Positions 32,805 to 34,331 of a DNA stretch of 34,731 nt are shown here, piece by piece. Position 1 is the stretch's first letter. Every line of letters begins with the position of its first letter. The stretch is from assembly GCA_030038835.1 (NCBI GenBank), contig JASHQZ010000041.1, forward strand, positions 1 through 34,731. Reading direction: 5' to 3'. The DNA is from a candidate division FCPU426 bacterium. Its GTDB lineage: Bacteria > Oederibacteriota > Muellerivitia > Muellerivitales > Muellerivitaceae. A program made the position numbers and the translations under genes. The notes beneath the pieces are model-generated. The model saw only the letters and a list, made by a program, of their open reading frames with translations, was not told where the DNA came from and did not search any database.

Positions 32805-32833
32805 TTGACAAGGTAAAAAAGGAAAGATAAAAT
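32805..32833 (+). promoter_or_regulatory. Near-consensus sigma70 promoter TTGACA-N17-TAAAAT
   Basis: TTGACA 32805-32810, 17-nt spacer, TAAAAT 32828-32833; located after the stop codon of the preceding CDS. Confidence 0.7.
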
Positions 32834-32839
32834 CCAGAA

Positions 32840-33018
32840 GGTTTGCCCTCGTTCTCCTTTCTAAGATCGGGCTATCCCCGATGCATTGTAAAGAGGGCGA
32901 CACAAGTTTCAGTATGGGGCCAAAGGCCCTTTTCTTAATGATGAACTGTGTGAGTTCAATTGCCGCAAGACTTTTTTAAACCTCATCTGCCGATCAGTGC
33001 AGGATGGGGTTTTTCTTT
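32840..33018 (+). ncRNA. Candidate structured intergenic RNA (6S-like/novel sRNA or rph leader attenuator)
   Basis: Bounded by the promoter at 32805-32833 and the terminator at 32978-33020; internal complementarities ATCGGG/CCCGAT, GCCCTC/GAGGGC, GGGCC-AAA-GGCCC, ACACAAGTT/AACTGTGT, AGAAGGTTTGC/GCAAGACTTTT. Confidence 0.5.
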
Positions 33019-33020
33019 TT
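32978..33020 (+). terminator. Rho-independent terminator upstream of rph
   Basis: AAACCTCATC (32978-32987) pairs with GATGGGGTTT (33003-33012, one G-T), inner TGC/GCA, followed by TTCTTTTT. Confidence 0.78.
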
Positions 33021-33045
33021 AAACGGTTCGAACAAGGGGGAGCCA

Positions 33046-33744
33046 ATGACAGCCCAAATAAGGCCGATTCAATTCTTGAGGTCCTACACCCGTTACGCCG
33101 AGGGCTCGGTTTTGGTGTCCATGGGTCAGACGAAAGTCCTTTGTACCGCCTCGGTTTCCGAGGAGGTGCCGCCCTTTCTCAGGGGGAAAGGAAAGGGGTG
33201 GGTTACCGCCGAGTATTCCATGCTCCCCCGAAGCACTGCCGAGCGGACGCCGCGGGCGGCCGTGAAGGGGAAAATCGACGGACGGACCCATGAAATCCAA
33301 CGGTTGATCGGGAGGTCCCTTCGGTCGGTGGTGGACTTGGCAGTCTTGGGGGAGCGGCAAATCGTCATCGACTGCGATGTGCTTCAGGCCGACGGGGGGA
33401 CCCGTACAGCGTCCATCAACGGCGCCTATGTGGCGCTAGCTGACGCCCTGGCGGGCTTGGTCGGGAAAAAGGCCTTGGATCGGATGCCGATCCGGGAAGC
33501 GGTCGCGGCGGTCAGCGTGGGCGTTGTCCAGGGGAAGCCCGTCCTGGACTTGTGTTACGAGGAGGATTACCAAGCTGACGTTGATTTCAACGTGGTTATG
33601 ACGGCTTCGGGAAAATTCGTCGAAATCCAGGGAACTGCCGAGAAGGAACCGTTCAGCCGGAAGGAATTGGAAGAGTTATTGAAATTGGCTGAGGCGGGAA
33701 TCCGGCAGGTCCTTCGGTCTCAGGAAAAAGCTTTTCGCAAATGA
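33046..33744 (+). CDS. rph: Ribonuclease PH
   Basis: [94 protein letters not shown] 33046 after AAGGGGGAG. Confidence 0.95.
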
Positions 33745-34331
33745 ACCAATTGATCGTTGCCACCCATAATCGAAATAAATTCAAGGAAATGGCGGAATCC
33801 TTATCCGGAGCTGGATGGGAGGTCCTCCCGGGATACGATTTTCCGGGAATGCCCCAAGTGGAGGAGGACGGCACGACGTTGGAGGATAATTCCCTCAAAA
33901 AGGCCCGAGTCGTTTCAGAATTCACGCGGTTGCCAGCCTTGTCCGACGATACGGGATTGTTTGTGGACGCTTTGGACGGCCGACCCGGCATCTACGCGGC
34001 CCGTTTTGCCGGGGATAATTGCACCTATGAGGACAATGTCCGAAAATTACTGGGGCTGATGGCAGGTGTGCCGCAAGGGAAAAGAAGCGCGTTTTTTAGG
34101 ACCGTCATCACGTTATATTATCCCGATGGCCAGTTTTGGCAGGTGGCGGGGGAGGTCCGGGGAAACATCGTCACCGAGGCTCGAGGTCAAGAGGGATTCG
34201 GATATGATCCGGTGTTCCGTCCCTCGGGTTCTTCGAAGGTTTTCGCGGAAATGACCCTGGAGGAAAAGAACAAAATCAGCCATCGCGGCTTGGCTGTCCA
34301 AAAAGCCAGAGAATTATTGAAAGTGATTTAA
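33741..34331 (+). CDS. rdgB: RdgB/HAM1 family XTP/dITP (non-canonical purine NTP) pyrophosphatase
   Basis: [94 protein letters not shown] overlap with rph. Confidence 0.96.

Follow-up and report, generated by a model that had tools for sequence, protein, structure and literature searches.

The window, by which we mean the whole stretch of 34,731 nucleotides of candidate division FCPU426 DNA that was analysed, contains an RNase PH gene (rph) followed by an rdgB-like gene, and the leader upstream of this pair carries a promoter, one copy of a dispersed repeat and an intrinsic terminator. The features, all on the plus strand, are as follows.

32805..32833, + strand: sigma-70-type promoter of the rph leader, TTGACA-N17-TAAAAT (promoter scan; a TTGACA-type promoter is kept in relatives)
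32844..32952, + strand: a copy of the dispersed double-hairpin repeat, counted with its two terminal TGs (blastn and covariance-model matches)
32844..32845, + strand: left terminal TG, same as the right end and a probable target duplication (end comparison; empty-site comparison of TA-type copies)
32845..32898, + strand: composite hairpin A (covariation in 77 copies), with outer stem GCCCTC (32845-32850)/GAGGGC (32893-32898) and inner stem ATCGGG (32866-32871)/CCCGAT (32877-32882)
32900..32951, + strand: composite hairpin B (covariation in 77 copies), whose outer stem starts with ACACAA (32900-32905) pairing with AACTGTGT (32944-32951) and whose inner stem is GGGCC (32917-32921)/GGCCC (32925-32929) with loop AAA
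32951..32952, + strand: right terminal TG dinucleotide (end comparison)
32978..33014, + strand: intrinsic terminator of the rph leader (fold; core kept in relatives)
33046..33744, + strand: rph, RNase PH (Pfam PF01138 and PF03725)
33741..34331, + strand: rdgB-like gene, Ham1 family (Pfam PF01725)

The leader of rph

The promoter, which a sequence-only reading of this DNA had described as near-perfect, matches 11 of 12 consensus positions, and the segment 32400-33300 holds three promoter-like sites against 0.3 expected from shuffles. The terminator hairpin (AAACCTCATC...GGATGGGG, followed by a T run), which had been called strong, is present in the minimum-energy fold of 32836-33020 and ends about 30 nt before the rph ATG at 33046; a bulge in its stem kept a simple terminator scanner from detecting it. 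Compared with shuffled sequences, 32836-33020 folds only moderately more stably (z -2.15).

Both signals recur in relatives. Within a family set of eight genomes, made up of the source genome (G000), its congeners G001 and G002, and G003 to G007, the TTGACA promoter and the terminator are kept upstream of rph in six (G000, G001, G002, G003, G005 and G007), which by their kinship labels represent four genera, and the terminator core (CCTCAT...ATGGGGTTTTT) is retained with small changes in G001, G002, G003, G005 and G007. The unit is absent from G006; in G004 the rph region could not be located. The earlier proposal of a short transcription unit or attenuator upstream of rph is thus upheld by a promoter-terminator unit conserved across genera. 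Orthologous rph leaders were compared (L183, L185, L186 and L187), and the repeat lies between promoter and terminator only in G000 and G002, being absent from G001, G003, G005 and G007; leaders without it have a variable spacer of 35-55 nt. Taking the window copy out together with one TG leaves a TCCA-to-AACCTC spacer of 35 nt, compared with 36 nt in G001 (hand count), and on its own the leader of G001 forms a small hairpin in addition to the terminator. Read from these sequences, the host promoter-terminator unit most likely predates the repeat: that promoter and terminator are kept in six genomes, four of which lack the repeat, suggests that a mobile element lengthened an ancestral short leader. 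Independently of the repeat, the host unit is a candidate in its own right and may be a short RNA or an attenuator of rph transcription. G002 has a further insert of about 155 bp, made of a different repeat, in the stretch that separates the rph promoter from the upstream gene (L003/L067).

The leader had been interpreted as a 6S-like or lineage-specific sRNA, in which a closing helix and internal hairpins enclose an open bubble. The hairpins ACACAA/AACTGTGT, GGGCC-AAA-GGCCC and ATCGGG/CCCGAT are indeed where they had been placed, and all three covary in the family alignment. The bubble is not supported; the outer stem GCCCTC/GAGGGC had been overlooked, and this part of the leader is therefore a second composite hairpin. 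As for the closing helix (32836-32846 with 32965-32975), 10 of 11 positions do pair in the window, a match that 4.6% of shuffles equal; in G002, however, the count falls to 6 of 11, and the helix is impossible in leaders without the repeat. A conserved closing stem with a central bubble, by which a 6S RNA would be recognised, was not found. Against Rfam, including the 6S/SsrS model RF00013 that the sequence-only reading had named, the region gave nothing at gathering thresholds; with E values relaxed up to 10 there was still no 6S match, and only chance-level matches appeared (sX14, 16.9 bits; rnk_pseudo, 15.1 bits). Moreover, all eight family genomes have exactly one full-length 6S candidate each, elsewhere than in the rph leader; three of these exceed the curated cut-off of 46.4, and the candidate of the source genome, at C136:1723-1903, comes close to it with 43 bits (E 2.4e-7). 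A 6S-like RNA, binding RNA polymerase as an open-promoter mimic, would account for a length of about 180 nt, a promoter and terminator of its own, and hairpins that a closing helix could join. However, the likeness to 6S/SsrS ends with length and promoter/terminator, and the interior is a dispersed repeat that occurs in either orientation and that four relatives lack in this leader, so that we regard the idea as scarcely credible and the sRNA reading as no longer tenable.

A dispersed double-hairpin repeat

A blastn search among relatives matched the segment 32839-32956 to several further loci, both in its own genome and in three relatives. A covariance model built from twelve copies, against which 32840-32956 of the window scores 115 bits, found 36 matches in G000 (35 in a deeper rerun), 33 in G001, 44 in G002, 10 in G007, 3 each in G003 and G005, 1 in G004 and none in G006; some of these are weak or count one copy again on the opposite strand, and the true copy numbers are therefore slightly lower. 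The repeat is thus multicopy and dispersed, and it is restricted to the family, the same model giving no match in 51 more distant genomes. Scanned with a strict pattern, a set with one genome for each GTDB species gave 16 loci, a lower bound because of that strictness, with 14 in metagenome-assembled genomes (MAGs) titled candidate division FCPU426 and 2 in a MAG, JAJPJW01, that was deposited as 'Proteobacteria bacterium'. No match was found among phage or plasmid records, and no Rfam family matched the repeat.

Each unit of about 108 bp consists of hairpin A, one spacer base and hairpin B, and is bounded by T-R on both sides. In an alignment of 77 copies, 94.1% of cells are paired, against 35-45% in slid controls, and 25 of the 27 pairs show two-sided (compensatory) change, against 10.4 in shuffles and a level reached in 0 of 500 of them; these figures gain from an alignment that had been fitted to the structure, although the contrast is large nonetheless. 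The two ends of a copy usually carry the same dinucleotide (TA/TA in 43 of 85 copies, TG/TG in 25 of 85), and in 73 of 77 copies the R of the right end agrees with the Y in the foot of hairpin A. On inspection, no clear terminal inverted repeat extends beyond the T-R dinucleotide.

With a simple codon-based gene caller, nearly all copies are intergenic. Their orientation is unbiased: among 85 copies, 30 are co-directional with the flanking genes and 31 opposite to them, 12 lie between divergent genes and 5 between convergent ones, and the remainder are at contig ends. This lack of orientation bias argues against a strand-specific RNA gene. The nearest copy in the same genome has a median identity of 74%, which indicates that the copies are old; movement is therefore inferred from presence and absence and not from near-identical copies.

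Our searches for a mobilising enzyme covered two families, Y1_Tnp and IS630-type DDE_3, and found none for the repeat. Y1_Tnp was matched in six of the eight family genomes. The two without it, G001 and G003, are 98-99% complete and both have copies of the repeat, and G006, which has Y1_Tnp, has none; no copy lies in the fetched neighbourhoods of Y1 genes. For DDE_3 there was no match over the cut-off.

Insertion sites and change in place

Empty sites were found at several loci. The spacer downstream of ruvA holds a copy in G002 that is missing from G000, G001, G005 and G006. This spacer and that of rph have diverged, and exact target duplication was read instead from a separate host repeat in G007, which three copies interrupt at GGGAGAGGG-TA: many unoccupied host repeats read GGGAGAGGG-TA-GGGTGAGGGG, and occupied ones GGGAGAGGG-TA-[element]-TA-GGGTGAGGGG, with GGG-TA-GGG at the empty site and GGG-TA-[element]-TA-GGG at the filled one. 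This direct evidence comes from TA-type copies in one host repeat only, and the three filled sites could descend from one insertion copied along with the host repeat. Several further copies sit inside arrays of AGTTTTG-like heptads, whose 7-bp register is restored when a copy is removed with one 2-bp duplicate (0.40 for a 2-bp duplication, against 0.25-0.29).

Copies at shared sites also allow change in place to be followed. Across eight pairs, one of which (L071/L052) is of unproven orthology, differences fall at 47 of 432 paired and 134 of 452 unpaired positions, although differences in loop length may inflate loop divergence. This suggests, from sequence comparison, that the hairpins are partly maintained after insertion. 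Since stems change less than loops, the hairpins may serve a role in place, such as mRNA end protection, RNase processing or a protein-binding palindrome, which is the weakest step of our explanation.

In two genera (L107 in G007 and L117 in G005) a copy stands immediately before a tRNA-Trp-like gene that is followed by a secE-like gene, and in L117 an rpmG-like end precedes that copy. As we read these sequences, this is probably an old insertion shared by both.

Discussion

The most probable explanation of the locus, to which we give a probability of about 0.88, is that the supposed sRNA gene is a pre-existing promoter-terminator leader of rph into which a copy of a mobile double-hairpin repeat has been inserted. 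The host unit comprises a strong promoter, a short variable leader of about 35-55 nt and an intrinsic terminator just upstream of rph-rdgB. The repeat of about 108 bp would have entered between promoter and terminator, probably in an ancestor shared by G000 and G002, and would have spread as a non-autonomous mobile element of ERIC/MITE-like character that is presumed to insert at TA or TG and to duplicate the dinucleotide. Within the rph leader it would be transcribed, and the leader RNA would have grown from about 75-100 to about 180 nt.

The repeat is a new family of a known kind, the small dispersed bacterial repeats, and is ERIC-like. As in ERIC, RU and YPAL elements, it is short, non-coding, multicopy, dispersed, intergenic and base-paired, with insertion polymorphism seen as empty sites and with terminal TA or a short target duplication. 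ERIC/IRU of enterobacteria are 127 bp long, intergenic and strongly base-paired, occur in dozens of copies and have terminal TA with target duplication (PMC2229807, PMC10969869). The FCPU426 repeat is similar in length, location, pairing, copy number and TA ends; it differs in being built of two adjacent composite hairpins, in ending in TA or TG, in having no terminal inverted repeat that we could see, and in being found here only in FCPU426-type genomes, with no Rfam, phage or plasmid match. MITEs of the RUP and Correia/NEMIS type are non-autonomous, shorter than 200 bp, associated with insertion at TA and give strongly paired transcripts (PMC2229807). Unlike these, the FCPU426 repeat has neither detected terminal inverted repeats nor a detected partner transposase, and it therefore falls short of the strict definition of a MITE; we describe it as MITE-like. 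The family of miniature mobile repeats that it forms in candidate division FCPU426 appears not to have been described before.

Other accounts of the repeat and of the leader fit part of these observations. REP, BIME and REPIN elements are extragenic palindromes with several hairpins per unit (PMC3733652, PMC3116915), and our repeat, which is extragenic, palindromic and orientation-independent with two hairpins per unit, could be imagined as such an element spread by a Y1 tyrosine transposase (RAYT), the more so as Y1_Tnp occurs in most family genomes. However, REPs are 20-40 bp long and carry a GTAG or CGTC tag (PMC3733652), while the repeat is about 108 bp long and no such tag is apparent on inspection at the ends of aligned copies; its presence does not follow the Y1 transposases either, given the two genomes with copies and no Y1_Tnp and the one for which the reverse is true. 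This origin therefore seems unlikely. Somewhat less likely still is that selection has shaped the entire leader, together with the repeat, as an attenuator of rph-rdgB, with the repeat forming its antiterminator. The conservation of promoter and terminator in six genomes and the retention of the repeat in G000 and G002 would agree with this, but in relatives the two signals persist without the repeat, in leaders of dissimilar sequence, and by eye we recognised no conserved alternative helix with the terminator.

We give even less weight to the view that the repeat is a strand-specific regulatory RNA family, either a cis-acting 5'-UTR motif or an sRNA, with its own promoter at each copy. Strong covariation and the slower change of stems than of loops would be expected of such a family, and some copies (for example L093) are preceded at a short distance by a TATAAT-like box and followed closely by a ribosome-binding site. 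Against it stand the balanced orientation, the insertion-like presence and absence with matching end dinucleotides, and the fact that G-U pairs (n = 69) are not clearly commoner than A-C mismatches (n = 52), by which the constraint is not clearly one-stranded. TD-1 and TD-2 of Treponema denticola are multi-copy RNA motifs, and a likeness to motifs of this sort was set aside because of the missing orientation bias. Lastly, the repeat might be a domesticated mobile palindrome, its hairpins selected at many loci as a lineage-wide RNA-processing or protein-binding site, and the choice between TA and TG as its insertion site dictated by a complementary base in the foot of hairpin A; taken jointly, these propositions are improbable to about the same degree as a RAYT origin. 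In IS200/IS605 elements target choice is guided by base pairing, and the R/Y agreement between copy end and hairpin foot is what such guidance would produce, although two inherited subfamilies would also account for the counts.

Reading the locus as a host leader with an inserted repeat has consequences beyond rph. A promoter and a terminator with a mobile repeat inserted between them have exactly the appearance of a new gene for a structured sRNA, and a plausible false positive is thereby corrected. The strong covariation of this repeat would mislead searches for structured RNAs that rely on covariation alone. The comparison has also exposed a conserved promoter-terminator leader before rph-rdgB.

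Further repeats were seen in these genomes. Beside many copies there is a second repeat system, in which AGTTTTG-like heptad arrays are accompanied by an AT-rich hairpin and an inverse AACTCAAAACTC array (L045, L066, L072, L074, L077 and others). In G007 (L192-L221) the repeat CCCTCGCCCCTTGCGGGAGAGGGTAGGGTGAGGGG is abundant, with 32 core matches within one mismatch. Some copies, among them L087 and L116, are flanked by a third dispersed repeat, of the TTGCTTCGTC...TCGCAATGAC type.
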